A model generated the notes under the pieces. It saw only the letters and a program-made list of their open reading frames with translations. It was not told where the DNA came from and ran no database searches. Shown one piece after another: positions 6,102 to 14,143 of a stretch of DNA of 44,965 nt. The stretch covers positions 1 to 44,965 of the forward strand of contig JAITQK010000180.1 of the NCBI GenBank assembly GCA_031288975.1. Direction: 5' to 3'. How positions within the stretch are numbered: position 1 is the first letter of the stretch; the number at the start of each line of letters is the position of its first letter. A program made the translations under genes and the position numbers. The DNA comes from Treponema sp. (lineage in GTDB: Bacteria > Spirochaetota > Spirochaetia > Treponematales > Breznakiellaceae).

Positions 6102-8147
6102 ATGAGCACATTGGTAGCTGTTCAAACACGGGTATTGATACCCCTATCTTTTTTTGTGGCCCTGTTGTTTCTGGTTTCTGTACCGGCCTTTGCCCAGGAT
6201 TCCTACTTTGTAAAGGCTGACGGTAATGACCAAAACAGCGGACTCACCGAAGAAGCCCCTTTTAAGACCTTGGCAAAAGCGGTGGAGGCCGCGTCAAAGG
6301 GTACGGTAAAAAACATACAGGTCATCGGTACCTTGGATATGCGAAGCGAAGCTGCCTCAAATGATGCAGGTGTTTTTGTTATAGCGGATACCGGGGATGC
6401 CCGGATCACCATAAGCGGCAAAGAGGGCGATGAGGCGATCCTGAGCGGAGCAGGAGCGGGAAAGCGGGTGGTGTATGTTGGGGGGAATGGGGATATCCAG
6501 TTTGTCCATATTGGTATCAGGAATGCTGAAACTGGCCAGAACGGCGGCGGTATTGCGGTGGTGCATGCACGGGTCAGCCTGGGCAGGGGCGTCAACGTGG
6601 GAGACAACCACACAGAAGGTTCAGGCGGCGGCGCAGCAGTGGGGGATGGAGGGGTCTTGACCCTGGAGGGCGCTGAAATCAGCGGAAACCAGGCGGCAGA
6701 GGATGGCGGCGGAGTCGCGGTGTTTTCCGGCGCGCTCATCATACGGGATGGCAGGATGCACGGTAATACTGCGGGAAAAATCGGCGGCGGCCTTGGGGTC
6801 TATGATGAAGGCGTCTGTACCCTGGAACAGGGTGAAATTACCGGCAATAAGGCCCTGGCAGGTGGCGGCATGGGCATCTTAGGGACCTGTACCATGGTGA
6901 ATGGTCTTGTGTACCGCAATACTGCGGAGGAAGAAGGCGGTGGTGTAGGTGTTTTTGATGGCGCCGCGTTTACCATGCTGAACGGCTCCATTACCGAAAA
7001 CCAGGCGGAACATGACGGCGGGGGTCTGTATCTGGCCAGGGCTACCAGTTTTACTTTGGAGGATGGTATCATACACGCAAATAGGGCCGGAGGGAACGGC
7101 GGCGGTCTGGTAAGCAACGGTTCCTTTACCATGGTACAAGGTAGCATTACCGGGAACACTGCGGACTTATGCGGCGGCGCTGTGGAAATCTACCGTGAAG
7201 GTGTTTTTACCTTGGAAAATGGCGACCTGAGGGATAATACCGCCGGGGAGAACGGCGGTGCTGTGGATGTTTACGGCAGGTTTACCATGAACGGCGGCAG
7301 GATTAGGGGGAATAAGGCGGTCATAGGCGGTGGTGTGGATGTGTACGATGAAGGCGTTTTTGTGTTGGAAAACGGCGAAATCCAGGGCAACAGCGCAGAG
7401 GCAGGTGGCGGTGCCGGCGGCTTAGGGTCCTTTACCATAAGGCAGGGCAGTATCTGGGATAATACGGCCGATTATGGCGCAGGCATCCTCACGTATCCAG
7501 GCAGCAGCTTTACTATGGCAGGGGGCATGATCAGGGGCAACCACGCGGCCTTGATGGGCGGCGGTCTTACTATCTATGGTCAGGCTTCCATGAGCGGTGG
7601 CATCATCAGGGGCAACCAGGCGGGGAACGGTGGTGGCCTTTGCATTGGTAATGAGGGCGTCTTTACCCTGGAAGCTGGTGACATCTCCGGGAACAAGGCA
7701 TTCAGGATGGGCGGCGTGGCGATCTACGGCCGTTTTATCATGGAAGGCGGCCTGGTTAGTGAGAATGATGCCTTTTTTGTGGGCGGTGTGGGTACTGATG
7801 CGGGCGGCGAATTCACCATGAAGGGTGGGCTTATCGAGCATAACCTGGCCATGGTCGAGGCGGGAGGTGTGCGGGTCATCATGGGAGGCAAGGCGGTCAT
7901 GTCAGGTGGTGATATCCGCAACAACCAGGCCCACCGGGGCGGCGGTGTGCGTCTCTACACCGGCGGCAGTTTTACCCTCACCGGCGGCAGGATACAGGGG
8001 AATATCGCCAACGAGGGCGGCGGTGTGTACCTGGACCAGGGGGGCAGGTTTATCCACGCGGGCGGTATCCTCCTGGGCAATGAAGCGCCGGAGGGTAAGG
8101 AACGCTACGATGAAGCACAAGGGGGAAAAGGCACTTATGAGGACTGA
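6102..8147 (+). CDS. Exported parallel beta-helix (Pmp-like repeat) protein
   Basis: A 681-aa protein with a clear signal peptide (hydrophobic core LIPLSFFVALLFLVSVPAFA, cleavage after AFA near residue 30). A long run of roughly 20-residue repeats follows, of the type GGG-x-VYDEGVFTLENGEI-xGN-xA, in which a Gly triplet and an Asn recur about once per turn. This is the pattern of right-handed beta-helices and of chlamydial/treponemal polymorphic membrane protein repeats. There is no C-terminal autotransporter barrel and no lipobox, so it is probably secreted or periplasmic. The frame stays open 150 nt upstream, but the signal peptide fixes the start at 6102. It overlaps or abuts the WD40-caspase gene and may be its partner or substrate (inference). 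Confidence 0.8.
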   Translation: MSTLVAVQTRVLIPLSFFVALLFLVSVPAFAQDSYFVKADGNDQNSGLTEEAPFKTLAKAVEAASKGTVKNIQVIGTLDMRSEAASNDAGVFVIADTGDARITISGKEGDEAILSGAGAGKRVVYVGGNGDIQFVHIGIRNAETGQNGGGIAVVHARVSLGRGVNVGDNHTEGSGGGAAVGDGGVLTLEGAEISGNQAAEDGGGVAVFSGALIIRDGRMHGNTAGKIGGGLGVYDEGVCTLEQGEITGNKALAGGGMGILGTCTMVNGLVYRNTAEEEGGGVGVFDGAAFTMLNGSITENQAEHDGGGLYLARATSFTLEDGIIHANRAGGNGGGLVSNGSFTMVQGSITGNTADLCGGAVEIYREGVFTLENGDLRDNTAGENGGAVDVYGRFTMNGGRIRGNKAVIGGGVDVYDEGVFVLENGEIQGNSAEAGGGAGGLGSFTIRQGSIWDNTADYGAGILTYPGSSFTMAGGMIRGNHAALMGGGLTIYGQASMSGGIIRGNQAGNGGGLCIGNEGVFTLEAGDISGNKAFRMGGVAIYGRFIMEGGLVSENDAFFVGGVGTDAGGEFTMKGGLIEHNLAMVEAGGVRVIMGGKAVMSGGDIRNNQAHRGGGVRLYTGGSFTLTGGRIQGNIANEGGGVYLDQGGRFIHAGGILLGNEAPEGKERYDEAQGGKGTYED

Positions 8148-11100
8148 TACCATGAGCGGGATGTTCATACTCTTCTGTTGCAGCATACTCTTCACCCTGC
8201 CAGCCCAGGATGTAACGGTGTATCCCCAGTTGGGGCATAGCGATCTTATCAATTCCGCGGCTTACAGTCCCGATGGCAGCCGCATCCTCTCCTGTTCCTG
8301 GGATGAAACCATCAAAATCTGGGATGCCCTGAGTGGCAGGGAGCTTAAAACCTTATCCACCCCAGGTAACACCCCGCTCTGTGCAGTCTGGGACGCCCAA
8401 GGGCTTTTCATTGCCGCAGGTTTCTGGGATGGTTCCATCACTATCTGGGATATGGAAAGCGAGACAGTGTATAAAACCTTCCTGGGACACCAGGTGGCGG
8501 TTAATTCCCTGGCTTTCAGCCCTGATGGACAGCGGCTGGCTTCCGCTTCCTTTGACTGCACTATCAAGGTCTGGGAGCTGGAAACCGGAACCGAACTGCA
8601 CACCCTGAAGGGTCATACAGGGAGTGTGCATGCTGTATTGTACAGCCCTGATGGTGGGCGGATATACTCCGGTTCCAGTGACGGAACCCTCCGTATCTGG
8701 GATGGGGAGACCGGCAGGGAACTCGGTAAGCCCTTGGGCATGGACAGCGCGGTCCATGCCCTTACCCTGAGTCCCGATGGCGCCAGGATAAGCTCCGGTT
8801 CTTTTAACGGCGCCATCATGGTCTGGGATGCCAGAACCGGGGCCTTGCTGCGTACCATGCGGGGCAATCAGTACGCAATAAACGCCCTGGCCTTTAACCC
8901 CGAGGGGTCCAGGATAGTCTCTGGTTCAATAGATAAAACGGTTAGAATCTGGGACCCCGAAAGCGGCGTACTCTTGAAAACCCTTTCCGGGCATCAGATG
9001 CCCGTTATGTCCGTGGCCTGGAGTCCTGCGGGGAGGCGGGTACTTTCAGGCTCCATCGATAAAACCACCAAAGAATGGGACGCAGAATCCGGTGCGCTCC
9101 TGGCCTCCTATTCAGGCTATATTGATGATAACCGGTCGGTGAGTTTCCGCTTTGACGCAGCGCAGATCCTCTCAGGCTCGGCCAATACCCTGGATTCCAG
9201 CGGCGTACTGAGGCTCTGGGACCCAGAAACCGGGGCCTTGCTTAAGTCCTTTACCGGTCACAGCAAGGGGATAAACACCGCAGGCTGGAGCCCTGATGGT
9301 AAATCGATGCTTTCCGGTTCCGGCGACGCTTCCTTAAAAGTATGGGACGCCGAATCGGGTACACTCCTGGCAACCCTGAGCGGGCATACCAACCGGATTA
9401 CCTATGGGGGTTTCAGCCCAGAAGGGACGCGCATCCTCTCTGCTTCCTGGGACAGTACCCTCAAGGTCTGGGATGCGGAAACCGGCGCTGAGTTACGCAC
9501 CCTTTCGGGTAACCGGGACATAATCTATGCCGCAGCCTGGAGTCCTGATGGCAAGCGGATCATCTCAGGGTGCCGGGACGGGGTCATCAAGGTCTGGGAT
9601 GCGGAAACCGGAAAGGAGCTGTACTCCTTCCAGGAGCACGCAGACGGTGGCATCTCTGCGCTGTGTTTCAGCCCTGAGGGCAGACGCTTTGTGTACAGTT
9701 CCGGCGCCATCGTAAAGGTCTGCGACGGGGAAACCGGGGACGAGGTCTTGGCCCTTTCCGGCCACGAGGACACGGTAAACACCCTGGATTACAGTTCCGA
9801 TGGGAAATGGATCCTCTCGGCTTCTGGCCAGACCGATACCTCCGCCGGGGATAAAACCATACGGGTCTGGGACGCCCAAACCGGGGAGGAATTGCTCAGG
9901 CTTTCAGGCCATAGCAACAACGTACATGCCGTGGCTTTCAGCCCCGATGACCGCAGGATCATTTCCGGTTCCAGCGACGGTACGATCCGGCTCTGGACCC
10001 TGGAAACCGGCGGTGATACAGGCCGCTTATCCGGCAAAGAAACCGTTCAGTGTATCGGCTTTAGCGATGGTGAATGGATCTGCATCACCCCAGAGGGCTA
10101 CTACAACGCTTCCCCCCAAGGGGACCTGCACCTCAACGTGCGGGTTGGGGACGAGGTTTTCGGCATGGACAATTTCCGGGGTACCTTCTACAAGCCCGAA
10201 GCTGTGGCCGCGGCCCTGGCCGGGGACCAGGAAGCTTACCTCGTGGCCATAGGGGGCAGACGCATTCAGGACGCGGCGGATTTTCTGCCTCCCAAAATCG
10301 AAATTCAGAACCCTGCAGTGAGCCTGGAGTCCACGGTAATTTCGGTGGCTTTTATCGGAGAAACCCAGCCAGTCAAGAACATCCGCGTGATAGTCCGGGG
10401 CCACCTGGTGGTACACGAGGAATTGGGCGATCAGGAATCCGACCGGATCAGGGGAACCGGAAAGGCGGACAACCAGGAACGGGTAGAACGGGCCTTTCCC
10501 CTGGATCTCAAGCCAGGGTGGAACAGTGTGGAGATCATCGCCAGCAACGGGTATTCCGACGATTCCAAAATCATTGAGCTATACTACCCAGGCACGGAAT
10601 TCGCGCTGGTGCCGAACCTGTGGATCCTCGCGGTCGGGGTGAATCAGTATGAGGATGCCATGCTGGAAGACCTTTCCTATGCGGCTGCCGACGCGGAAGG
10701 CATCATCAGCAGCTTTAAAGCCCAGGAAGGACGCCTCTATGGCAGGGTAAACAGTCTGCTCATAAGCGGCAGAAACGGAGAGCCGGTCCCCACGCGGGAT
10801 GCGATTATGGAGGGCTTATCCTTCCTCAACCAGGCAAGCGGCCAGGACATGGCCTTACTCTTTATAGCCGGTCATGGGGTAAGCGACCGGGAGAACAACT
10901 TCCTCTTTCTTCCTGGAGATGCCGCCCATACCGAGGACATGACGGTCTGGGATAAGGCCATAAGCCGCCAGGAAATCGATGCGGTTTTGCGGAAGAACCT
11001 GGGGCAAAAGCTCATTGTGATTGACGCCTGCCATTCAGCCGGAGTTGCCGGGGGCAAAGCCCGGTCCGTGGACTCCAACCGCCTCTTCCGGGACATGGAC

Positions 11101-11382
11101 GACGGCAGCACCATCGTGCTGACCTCCTGCCGTGGGAATGAATCCTCCCTGGAGCGGGCCGAGTATGGACACGGCCTTTTTACCTATAGTATCATTCAGG
11201 CTATGAAAGGCGATGCGGACCTGGACATAGGTGGCTTTGGCAAGGACGGTATGGTGACCCTTAACGAACTCAACACCTACATTCAGATCATGGTGCCCCG
11301 TTTGAGCAGCAGGAAACAGAACCCGACCATACATACCCCTGCGGGATTTTCCGATTTTAATGTGGCGGATCTGAGAAAATAG
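8137..11382 (+). CDS. Exported WD40-repeat protein with a C-terminal caspase-like (peptidase C14) domain
   Basis: About 1081 aa. A short hydrophobic N-terminus (MFILFCCSILFTLPAQ) suggests export. I count 14 WD40 units ending in WD or WE (for example SPDGQRLASASFDCTIKVWE) between about residues 30 and 650, enough for two seven-bladed propellers. A linker with an Ig-like section follows. Residues about 820-1075 are a caspase-fold domain with the His-Cys dyad: His913 in FIAGHGVSD and Cys965 in VIDACHSAGVAGG. Family knowledge: bacterial C14 domains are arginine- or lysine-directed proteases coupled to repeat sensors. The start could be 8137 or 8152; the upstream frame to 7825 lies inside the previous gene and is a shadow. 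The likely role is a periplasmic sensor-protease; substrate unknown. Confidence 0.85.
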   Translation: MRTDTMSGMFILFCCSILFTLPAQDVTVYPQLGHSDLINSAAYSPDGSRILSCSWDETIKIWDALSGRELKTLSTPGNTPLCAVWDAQGLFIAAGFWDGSITIWDMESETVYKTFLGHQVAVNSLAFSPDGQRLASASFDCTIKVWELETGTELHTLKGHTGSVHAVLYSPDGGRIYSGSSDGTLRIWDGETGRELGKPLGMDSAVHALTLSPDGARISSGSFNGAIMVWDARTGALLRTMRGNQYAINALAFNPEGSRIVSGSIDKTVRIWDPESGVLLKTLSGHQMPVMSVAWSPAGRRVLSGSIDKTTKEWDAESGALLASYSGYIDDNRSVSFRFDAAQILSGSANTLDSSGVLRLWDPETGALLKSFTGHSKGINTAGWSPDGKSMLSGSGDASLKVWDAESGTLLATLSGHTNRITYGGFSPEGTRILSASWDSTLKVWDAETGAELRTLSGNRDIIYAAAWSPDGKRIISGCRDGVIKVWDAETGKELYSFQEHADGGISALCFSPEGRRFVYSSGAIVKVCDGETGDEVLALSGHEDTVNTLDYSSDGKWILSASGQTDTSAGDKTIRVWDAQTGEELLRLSGHSNNVHAVAFSPDDRRIISGSSDGTIRLWTLETGGDTGRLSGKETVQCIGFSDGEWICITPEGYYNASPQGDLHLNVRVGDEVFGMDNFRGTFYKPEAVAAALAGDQEAYLVAIGGRRIQDAADFLPPKIEIQNPAVSLESTVISVAFIGETQPVKNIRVIVRGHLVVHEELGDQESDRIRGTGKADNQERVERAFPLDLKPGWNSVEIIASNGYSDDSKIIELYYPGTEFALVPNLWILAVGVNQYEDAMLEDLSYAAADAEGIISSFKAQEGRLYGRVNSLLISGRNGEPVPTRDAIMEGLSFLNQASGQDMALLFIAGHGVSDRENNFLFLPGDAAHTEDMTVWDKAISRQEIDAVLRKNLGQKLIVIDACHSAGVAGGKARSVDSNRLFRDMDDGSTIVLTSCRGNESSLERAEYGHGLFTYSIIQAMKGDADLDIGGFGKDGMVTLNELNTYIQIMVPRLSSRKQNPTIHTPAGFSDFNVADLRK

Positions 11383-11405
11383 CAGTATAGTGTTAAATAG
11401 AGAAT

Positions 11406-11421
11406 CCCCACTGCAGAGGGG
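11406..11421. repeat. Short inverted repeat after the WD40-caspase gene
   Basis: CCCC (11406-11409) and GGGG (11418-11421) flank a central CTGCAG palindrome. Together with GGGT/ACCC just downstream it could form small alternative hairpins. There is no T-run, so it is not a convincing terminator. Confidence 0.3.
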
Positions 11422-11453
11422 CAGGGTATTAAACCCCACCGTGAAGGCACTGG

Positions 11454-11485
11454 GTTGCGCTCTCTATGAGCGCGTGGATTGAAAC
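11454..11485 (+). repeat. Solitary type I-C-like CRISPR repeat in a 5' leader
   Basis: A single 32-nt unit starts GTT, forms a perfect 6-bp stem (GCGCTC, loop TCTAT, GAGCGC) and ends with GTGGATTGAAAC. Length, stem position and the 3' tail are those of type I-C repeats as I know them. No second copy, spacer series or cas gene is present in the window, so it is not an array. It ends exactly where the Shine-Dalgarno AGGAG (11486-11490) of the next gene begins. Confidence 0.6.
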
Positions 11486-11496
11486 AGGAGTAACAG

Positions 11497-12154: not shown

Positions 12155-14143
12155 TTGTTCTCAAAACTGCGGGGTTTGTCTCATGGCCCCCGGCAGCTCC
12201 TCCTGGGGAGCCTTGGTTTTATCGTGATAGCCCTGGCTTTACTGGGGAGCGGTCTTGGGGATACCGGGGACCGGGCTTTGTTCGACACCCTTATGAGGCT
12301 GCGGATAAAGCATGGCGGCCTTTCCATGAACCCCCTCATTTCACCGGTGGATCTGAACGATCAGACCCTCAGAACCTTACAAGAAAAGGTCGATACCCGG
12401 GAAGCCTTTGCGGACCTCGTTACGGTGCTCTCCAGCTTTAACGCTTCCCAACTGGTTTTGGATTTTCTCTTCCAGTTTCCCAAAGCCGAAGCAGATGACG
12501 CCCTGTTTATCGAAGCGGCCAGGGATGCGGAGAACCTCATCATGGCGGTGCTGGTTATGGAGGATGCTGGTTCTGACCTCAGTCCAGAGGAACGGCGGAT
12601 CCTCGAAAAGAACCTTTGGCACATAACGCTCAAGGGAAAGTCCTTGGTTCCCAAGGCTGGGGGGGTGATCATGCCCTTTCCAGCATTGGCAGAAGCGGCC
12701 CTGCACTTGGGGCACATAAACGAAACCCCTGATGCTGACGGTATCTTCCGCCGGGTACCCCTGCTCTACCAATGGGAAGATGGCTATATCCCCTCTTTGC
12801 CCCTGGCCGCCGCAGCCCAATACTGGGAGATCGATCCCAATGGGGTGATCCTCTACCCTGGGAAGGAACTGGTTCTCCCCCTTCCGCTGTTTGATGAGGA
12901 GGCCGAGGCTGAGTATATCCGCATCCCCGTGGATGAACAGTGCCGTATGCTCATCCCTTACGTTAAAACCTGGGCCGATAGTTACGACCGCATCCCCCTG
13001 GAACGCATTACCGCGGCAAAAGACAATGCTGCTGCGGCGGAAACCTACCGGGAAGGGCTTACCGGTCAGATTGCCCTGGTGGCGGAAGTAACCACCACCC
13101 AGAAGGATATCGGGCCTACAGCGTTTGAAGGGATCTACCCCCTTTCGGGCATCCATGTGGCGGTCTTGAGCAGCATCCTTTCTGGTGATTCCTTTATTGC
13201 GGAAAGCGGGCGCCTCTATCAAGGGCTGGCCCTCCTCCTCTTATTCCTCACCATGCTCTTTGCTCAAAGCGCAGGGACAGACCTCGGTTTCCACTTCCGT
13301 TTCCTCGGCCTTTTCATCCTCTTTACCGCGATCAATGGTATCCGCTGGCAGTTTTTTCACATTACCCCCTGGTATACTGCCGGCCTGGGCGCCCTGATCT
13401 GCTCCTGGGGCCTTGCTTTTGCTTTGCGGTTGTTTTCCCGGTACCACGAGCAGTCCCTTCTGGAAAATGCCCTGTCCCGCTACTTCCACCACGACCTGGT
13501 AAGCAAGATCATCAAAGAAGGCAAGGTAGACCTCACCCCTGCTTACAAGGAACTTACGATCCTCTTTTCCGATATTTCCAGTTTTACCAAGTGGAGTTCC
13601 GACAAGGAGCCCGAGGTGGTGCATGGCTTTTTAAGCTATTTTCATAGCGCCATGGCGGACATCATTTTTGCCCACCAGGGAACGGTGGATAAATTTATCG
13701 GCGATGGTATGCTGGCGTTTTTTGGCGATCACAGTGGAGTGCTTGGGGCGGATACCACGGCATCCACCGGTTCCAGTCATGTACGGCAATGCCTGGAGGC
13801 GGCCATGGAAATGCAGCGGAAAGCCCGGGAAATAGCCGCGGAATGGAAGTCCCGGATCAACATCAACCTGCACATCCGCATCGGCATAAACACCGGCAAG
13901 GTCATCGTAGGCAATCTCGGGGCGGAAAACCGTATTGAATACACCGTGATCGGCGCTGCGGTGAACCTGGCCCAGCGCATGGAAAGCAATGCGCCCCTGG
14001 GGGGCATCCTCTTAACCGGCGAAACCCGCAGGCTTGCGGGGGACGATTTCCCCATGAGCGCGAGGCGCACTATCTTGGTCAAGGGCTACGATGAACATGA
14101 GATAGAGGTCTATGATATCGGTGCAGAGACGTTCGATAGATAG
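12155..14143 (+). CDS. CHASE2-domain class III adenylate cyclase
   Basis: About 662 aa. It has an N-terminal membrane anchor (LLLGSLGFIVIALALLGSGL), a large extracytoplasmic CHASE2 sensor domain (about 45-345), two or three further membrane segments (about 350-425) and a cytoplasmic class III nucleotide cyclase domain (about 460-655). Catalytic residues are complete: metal-binding Asp473 (FSDISSF) and Asp517 (GDGML), Lys513, Thr597 (EYTVIG), Asn604 and Arg608 (VNLAQR). The Lys/Thr pair is that of class IIIb adenylate cyclases, many of which respond to bicarbonate. The start is uncertain: TTG at 12155 directly after the previous stop has no good Shine-Dalgarno. The 3' end overlaps convergent purN by 34 bp. 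Confidence 0.85.
   Translation: MFSKLRGLSHGPRQLLLGSLGFIVIALALLGSGLGDTGDRALFDTLMRLRIKHGGLSMNPLISPVDLNDQTLRTLQEKVDTREAFADLVTVLSSFNASQLVLDFLFQFPKAEADDALFIEAARDAENLIMAVLVMEDAGSDLSPEERRILEKNLWHITLKGKSLVPKAGGVIMPFPALAEAALHLGHINETPDADGIFRRVPLLYQWEDGYIPSLPLAAAAQYWEIDPNGVILYPGKELVLPLPLFDEEAEAEYIRIPVDEQCRMLIPYVKTWADSYDRIPLERITAAKDNAAAAETYREGLTGQIALVAEVTTTQKDIGPTAFEGIYPLSGIHVAVLSSILSGDSFIAESGRLYQGLALLLLFLTMLFAQSAGTDLGFHFRFLGLFILFTAINGIRWQFFHITPWYTAGLGALICSWGLAFALRLFSRYHEQSLLENALSRYFHHDLVSKIIKEGKVDLTPAYKELTILFSDISSFTKWSSDKEPEVVHGFLSYFHSAMADIIFAHQGTVDKFIGDGMLAFFGDHSGVLGADTTASTGSSHVRQCLEAAMEMQRKAREIAAEWKSRININLHIRIGINTGKVIVGNLGAENRIEYTVIGAAVNLAQRMESNAPLGGILLTGETRRLAGDDFPMSARRTILVKGYDEHEIEVYDIGAETFDR

Follow-up and report, generated by a model that had tools for sequence, protein, structure and literature searches.

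A dispersed treponeme element with a type I-C CRISPR-repeat-like 3' end and a possible role for Cas5c in mRNA leaders

Introduction

Solitary CRISPR repeats are known in two roles: as anti-CRISPR RNAs on phages and plasmids, and as RNAs resembling guides in toxin-antitoxin modules under CRISPR control. Solitary repeat units (SRUs) and RNA anti-CRISPRs (Racrs) are reported from phages, prophages and plasmids, and SRUs tend to lie close to promoters (Camara-Wilpert 2023; PMC10651486). The type I-C repeat of Bacillus halodurans is processed by Cas5d, which is reported to require the hairpin of the repeat and a single-stranded 3' end, and to cut at the base of the hairpin (PMC3890593). The use of a CRISPR defence enzyme in mRNA processing has so far been achieved by design, in 5' DREDGE (PMC12191184). 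With a dispersed element that often carries such a repeat ahead of genes, ordinary mRNAs might be trimmed or bound by a CRISPR enzyme.

Here, we analyse a stretch of treponeme DNA of 44,965 nucleotides (the window), in which an earlier, sequence-only reading had singled out a 32-nt unit just ahead of a gene. This unit turns out to form the 3' end of a composite element that is dispersed through the genome. The element is present in many copies, many of its sites are common to congeners, its copies are in excess in sense leaders in the window's genus, its hairpin is kept, and cas5c is present in the genome.

The unit and its surroundings

The 32-nt unit (GTTGCGCTCTCTATGAGCGCGTGGATTGAAAC; table 1) consists of a GCGCTC/GAGCGC stem of 6 bp, a 5-nt loop and the tail GTGGATTGAAAC. 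It thus has both the length, stem and tail of the I-C repeats found in arrays and the hairpin with a single-stranded 3' tail that marks a Cas5c substrate. RNAfold returns the identical 6-bp hairpin and leaves the tail and the Shine-Dalgarno site unpaired, in agreement with the exact I-C layout that the sequence-only reading had described. The same reading placed the unit one base before AGGAG, which needs correcting: zero bases lie between them. The ATG of the 218-aa gene (11497) stands 11 bases past the end of the unit. In the window, GTGGATTGAAAC occurs once where 0.19 occurrences are expected (≤1 mismatch), a lone occurrence that, taken by itself, lends the unit weak support. An Rfam search of the element brought no family to its gathering score; CRISPR-DR9 matched the unit with 19.7 bits (E=0.041), under a gathering score of 45.

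Several copies of the element, the window copy among them, sit between two co-directional genes. Here, the upstream gene carries HG...DACHSAG in its C-terminal part, the basis on which a caspase-like protease is read. The downstream gene had been called DUF4384-like; the family link is a weak one, as the Pfam match (E=0.066) misses the cut-off.

Table 1. Features around the I-C-like unit, in window coordinates.
Feature	Position	Strand	Remarks
Upstream gene, WD40 repeats	7825..11382	+	C-terminal part caspase-like protease, as we read it
Window copy of the dispersed element (shortened)	11396..11485	+	aligned with other copies and with orthologue L237
Element 5' part	11396..11430	+	AATAGAGAATCCCC, hairpin-forming block, GGGTATT
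Conserved linker	11431..11453	+	AAACCCCACCGTGAAG and GCACTGG
I-C CRISPR-repeat-like unit	11454..11485	+	stem 11457-11462 with 11468-11473; tail GTGGATTGAAAC 11474-11485
Shine-Dalgarno AGGAG	11486..11490	+	directly abuts the unit; read from the sequence
Downstream gene, 218 aa	11497..12153	+	sub-threshold DUF4384 match; G002 orthologue 92% identical
CHASE2 and adenylate/guanylate cyclase gene (Pfam)	12155-14143		immediately 3' of the 218-aa gene

A dispersed composite element

The exact tail GTGGATTGAAAC is found nine times in the unit's own genome (G000), always solitary and never in an array. Most of these nine units have AAACCCCACYGTGAAG upstream and, farther up, AATAAAGAATCCCC with G+C-rich hairpins. 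A covariance model made from the nine copies finds 23 copies in the own genome at E≤1e-3 (27 at E≤1); the congeners G002 and G001 have 24 and seven, respectively, and G005 has 22. Genera g4, g11 and g24 include more genomes with multi-copy sets, and what the model picks up in several other relatives are genuine CRISPR arrays. Since the unit recurs across the genome, the word 'single' in the sequence-only reading holds for the window and fails for the genome. When the linker and upstream block were searched alone in the own genome, without the unit, the linker pattern appeared at 14 sites (≤1 mismatch); a recognisable unit, free of gaps, follows at 12 of these. In being short, non-coding and multi-copy at unrelated loci, the element is like a MITE or a CREE.

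At full length (~180 nt), the element runs from AATAAAGAATCCCC through a hairpin, GGGGTATTGAAG..17..TATCGT/TATAGT, further hairpins and GGCGGGGTATTAAACCCCACNGTGAAG..GCGCTG to the I-C unit and AAACAA. Its TTGAAG-17-TATCGT segment is promoter-like, is oriented toward the unit and occurs in 31 of 40 long forms. The window copy belongs to the short forms and is made up of the 5' end AATAGAGAATCCCC, a hairpin block, the TATTAAACCCC-ACCGTGAAG block and the I-C-like unit. Its 5' part is without the promoter-bearing internal segment of the long form, as seen by comparison with its long-form orthologue in G002 (L237) and with G001 and G083 copies. Short forms seem to have arisen by deletion between repeats of GGGGTATT or of CCCC. 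The two ends of the element (AATCCCC and AATCCAC) bear a short and imperfect resemblance, judged by eye, and no transposase or terminal repeat was assignable to it.

Some copies show further variation. Copies L355, L359, L366, L384, L388 and L394 (G098, G088, G089) open with a common foreign TGTGGGTCAAGTTTAGC, joined inside the hairpin as if this were an insertion-sequence target. In L367, L397, L403 and L386, a short tandem repeat of AAAC (or AGAC) follows immediately past GAAAC. Locus L332 (G001:C241:2252-2288) holds an I-C unit without the upstream parts of the element, in the leader of a different gene (CAGGAGGCATTATG). At L145 in the own genome, the tail of the unit is swapped for other hairpin sequence, and at the same site in G002 (L258) most of the tail is kept.

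Age and movement of the copies

Flanks of 11 own-genome copies match the same site in G002 with 90-97% identity, and those of one G001 copy also match the same site in G002. These 12 shared-site pairs, the window site among the 11, were aligned. At the window site, flank identity is ~94.6%; the loop has become shorter, one stem pair has changed to G-U and the tail has stayed the same. The comparison with relatives that had been proposed as a check thus finds the unit conserved at the same position in a congener. The genomes that hold more distant homologues of the 218-aa gene are without model matches or, in one case (G033), have them on another contig.

Other copies look recent. G001 has five near-identical copies at unrelated loci, and at one of these five sites the element is absent in G000 and G002. 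In G083, eight of ten units are identical, and near-identical copies again lie at unrelated loci. Near-identical copies in both genomes, together with the site that is empty in congeners, suggest that the element has moved recently. A clean empty site was sought at two G001 insertions (L244 and L247) and none was readable: at L247 homology ends short of the element, and at L244 the orthologous gap is too diverged for a target duplication to be read.

Position relative to genes

Copies were scored as lying in a leader when a Shine-Dalgarno site and the start of a long ORF follow 5-60 nt downstream on the same strand. By this rule, 29 of the 61 copies in G000, G001, G002 and G005 are in leader position, compared with 1/58 for the divergent arrangement and 2.3% for random positions at the same loci. 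Under a slightly looser rule, leader position holds at 10 of 13 shared sites (the 12 aligned pairs plus L147, with its G002 counterpart L323) against 8 of 55 in other genera (Fisher p=3e-5); since the two groups were sampled unlike, the other genera being represented by their top-scoring copies, this contrast suggests, and does not prove, that sense-leader copies are preferentially retained in the window's genus. The copies in other genera look younger.

The proteins encoded downstream, identified by eye, include SAM synthetase (metK), glycogen synthase (glgA), MutL, EF-P (efp), adenylate kinase (adk) and branched-chain amino-acid transport (liv), and their genes look like chromosomal housekeeping genes. 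A special tie to the caspase-like gene cluster, as the sequence-only reading had envisaged, is therefore rejected, because copies stand ahead of many unrelated genes.

A leader preference is also seen among solitary I-C units in IMG/VR contigs (18/65, versus 8/65 divergent and 6.5% at random positions). It appears to be general and weaker, in line with the proximity of SRUs to promoters (PMC10651486). A phage origin of the composite block itself was tried as a candidate and found no support: a viral scan with the linker and the start of the repeat returned nine contigs, all read as apparent chance matches in coding sequence.

Constraint on the hairpin and tail

In the alignment of 66 copies, pairing is kept in 95% of stem cells; this alignment was fitted to the covariance model and handles relatedness only roughly. 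Changes in the stem are skewed, with 53 C>T versus 17 G>A, compared with 27:26 outside it (p=0.007). A C>T change in the stem leaves a G-U pair on the mRNA strand, and several stem pairs show double changes to A-U. Shuffled controls score as high in 14-26 of 500 runs, which makes the support from covariation moderate.

The loop has 12.2 changes per site, the stem 6.1 and the tail (minus its last base) 3.0; the figure for the tail is biased, since the first nine copies were picked by their exact tail. The last base of the repeat varies freely (20 changes). A check on 12 units sampled without regard to the tail gives 81 intact pairs out of 84; here too the tail changes less than the stem, though the difference is not significant (p=0.10). 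G005 keeps 96% of its pairing and has no detected Cas5d, which favours caution in tying the hairpin to this enzyme.

Type I-C genes and arrays

Contig C100 of the own genome carries cas5c, cas8c, cas7c (cut by the contig end) and the C-terminal part of cas3. MazG-, Ppx- and Ppk-like genes (by eye) lie between the cas3 end and cas5c in the opposite direction (L236:3653-8228). G002 has cas5c too. The Cas5c of the own genome is 86-92% identical to those of G002, G099 and G100 (86-87% for G099 and G100), and G099 holds an array whose repeat, GTCGCGCCCCGTGCGGGCGCGTGGATTGAAAC, has its 3' 16 nt (GCGCGTGGATTGAAAC) in common with many units; the remaining stem differs. The own assembly contains no I-C array: its copies are all solitary, with no two repeats separated by a spacer. 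Since the I-C likeness is genuine, the cas genes are in the genome and the site is conserved in a congener, the findings that would have refuted the sequence-only reading did not appear, although the exact 32-mer is found in no array, and that reading is supported in part.

In another genome, a degenerate ectopic repeat (GTCATACTTTGGAAGAAGTTGTGGATTGAAAC) lies on the minus strand near cas genes (L413:8900-9200; G059:C6) and is followed ~30 nt on by the start of a second repeat. It looks like a regulator of the CreR/CreA type.

Interpretation and alternatives

The simplest account is a MITE-like element with a Cas5c-substrate mimic, retained in the sense leaders of this genus. Whether the whole reading holds, with a treponeme element that ends in an I-C-repeat mimic, sense-leader copies that are kept and Cas5c acting on the mRNA, we regard as evenly balanced. 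Copies would transpose into more or less any intergenic position, with preferential retention of the ones that land in sense leaders. Where an I-C system is present, Cas5c may recognise the hairpin and tail in the mRNA and cut at the base of the stem, so that the message would begin at about GUGGAUUGAAAC, just before the ribosome binding site. Alternatively, it may remain bound at the site. Either event could tune the stability or translation of the message. In the window, a cut would part the 218-aa cistron from the upstream caspase-like gene, and Cas5c cutting or binding in this leader is plausible. A bolder version, in which the mobile element has seeded Cas5c processing sites in the leaders and intercistronic gaps of housekeeping mRNAs and Cas5c trims them as an RNA-level regulon, is possible and rather doubtful. 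Against the main reading stand the detection of cas5d in just five of the 13 multi-copy genomes, the lack of an assembled array and the moderate covariation.

The element could instead be a selfish RNA anti-CRISPR. Its transcripts would tie up Cas5c/Cas7 and weaken the I-C system of the host, which would help the element to persist, and the leader position would merely supply transcription. The unit is, as Racrs are, a solitary mimic of the host subtype's repeat; Racrs, including one of type I-C, are known as solitary phage repeats (PMC10651486), and the long form has a promoter-like motif of its own. Among 200 genomes of the family, cas5d is also commoner in those with at least five copies (5/13) than in the others (15/187; p=0.005), an association that is uncorrected for phylogeny and that counts absences on incomplete genomes, the multi-copy ones being MAGs about 55-90% complete. 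However, copies stand ahead of apparent chromosomal housekeeping genes, those of G000 and G002 are old copies at common sites, and many have diverged from any single array repeat. We consider this explanation unlikely.

Equally unlikely is a MITE independent of Cas proteins, in which the 3' hairpin is an element end or folding motif (a substrate of RNase III or RNase E, or inert) and the I-C likeness reflects origin or convergence. This would fit the eight of 13 multi-copy genomes without detected cas5d, the predominance of positions outside leaders in other genera and the free variation of the repeat's last base. There is also a precedent in the Correia elements of Neisseria, which can bear promoters and which RNase III can bind or cut (PMC2649163). 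On the other hand, the shared end agrees over 16 nt with the I-C repeat of a system whose Cas5c is very similar, and constraint on the very features that Cas5c reads is suggested by the tail and by the stem changes that preserve wobble pairs.

Much less probable is a crRNA-like guide, in which the unit and the next ~34 nt would direct the I-C complex as in CreA/CreR. Ectopic repeats with such a role are known in type I systems (PMC9458426), but here the next nucleotides are just the leader and gene start, a second repeat is absent, and more than 20 copies have unrelated followers. An array-end fossil, or a repeat that the adaptation machinery inserted by accident, both raised by the sequence-only reading, would suit the repeat-perfect layout and the real arrays with similar repeats in relatives, but is largely refuted and now scarcely credible, because copies at more than 20 sites share an upstream non-CRISPR block and those of the own genome have no spacer or adjoining second repeat.

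Comparison with known systems

If Cas5c acts on the element, a defence enzyme would have been recruited for genome-wide mRNA processing. If it does not, the element would be an example of mobile elements that carry CRISPR-repeat mimics and spread them in host chromosomes. The open-access literature searched, outside which most subscription journals lie, yielded no chromosomal dispersed repeat with a CRISPR-mimic end ahead of ordinary genes.

Compared with the I-C repeat of Bacillus halodurans (GTCGCACTCTACATGAGTGCGTGGATTGAAAT; PMC3890593), the treponeme unit has the same length of 32 nt, the hairpin layout and a tail like GTGGATTGAA, but it has no array, spacers or leader, and its last base is unconserved. 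CreA and other type I ectopic repeats of CreTA modules (PMC9458426) are likewise degenerate repeats that serve outside immunity; CreA, however, is a guide RNA that represses a toxin through Cascade, not a dispersed leader element. Racrs (PMC10651486) are also solitary CRISPR-repeat mimics outside arrays, type I-C included, and lie near promoters, whereas the treponeme element is dispersed, multi-copy and chromosomal, often ahead of housekeeping genes. Correia repeat enclosed elements of Neisseria (CREE/NEMIS; PMC2649163) are similarly small, non-autonomous, dispersed and promoter-bearing, with processable hairpins that can influence adjacent genes; in contrast, they are processed by RNase III and have no CRISPR-repeat module. 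The treponeme element therefore resembles Racrs in its mimicry and Correia elements in being dispersed, promoter-bearing and near genes, a double likeness that falls short of showing membership of either.
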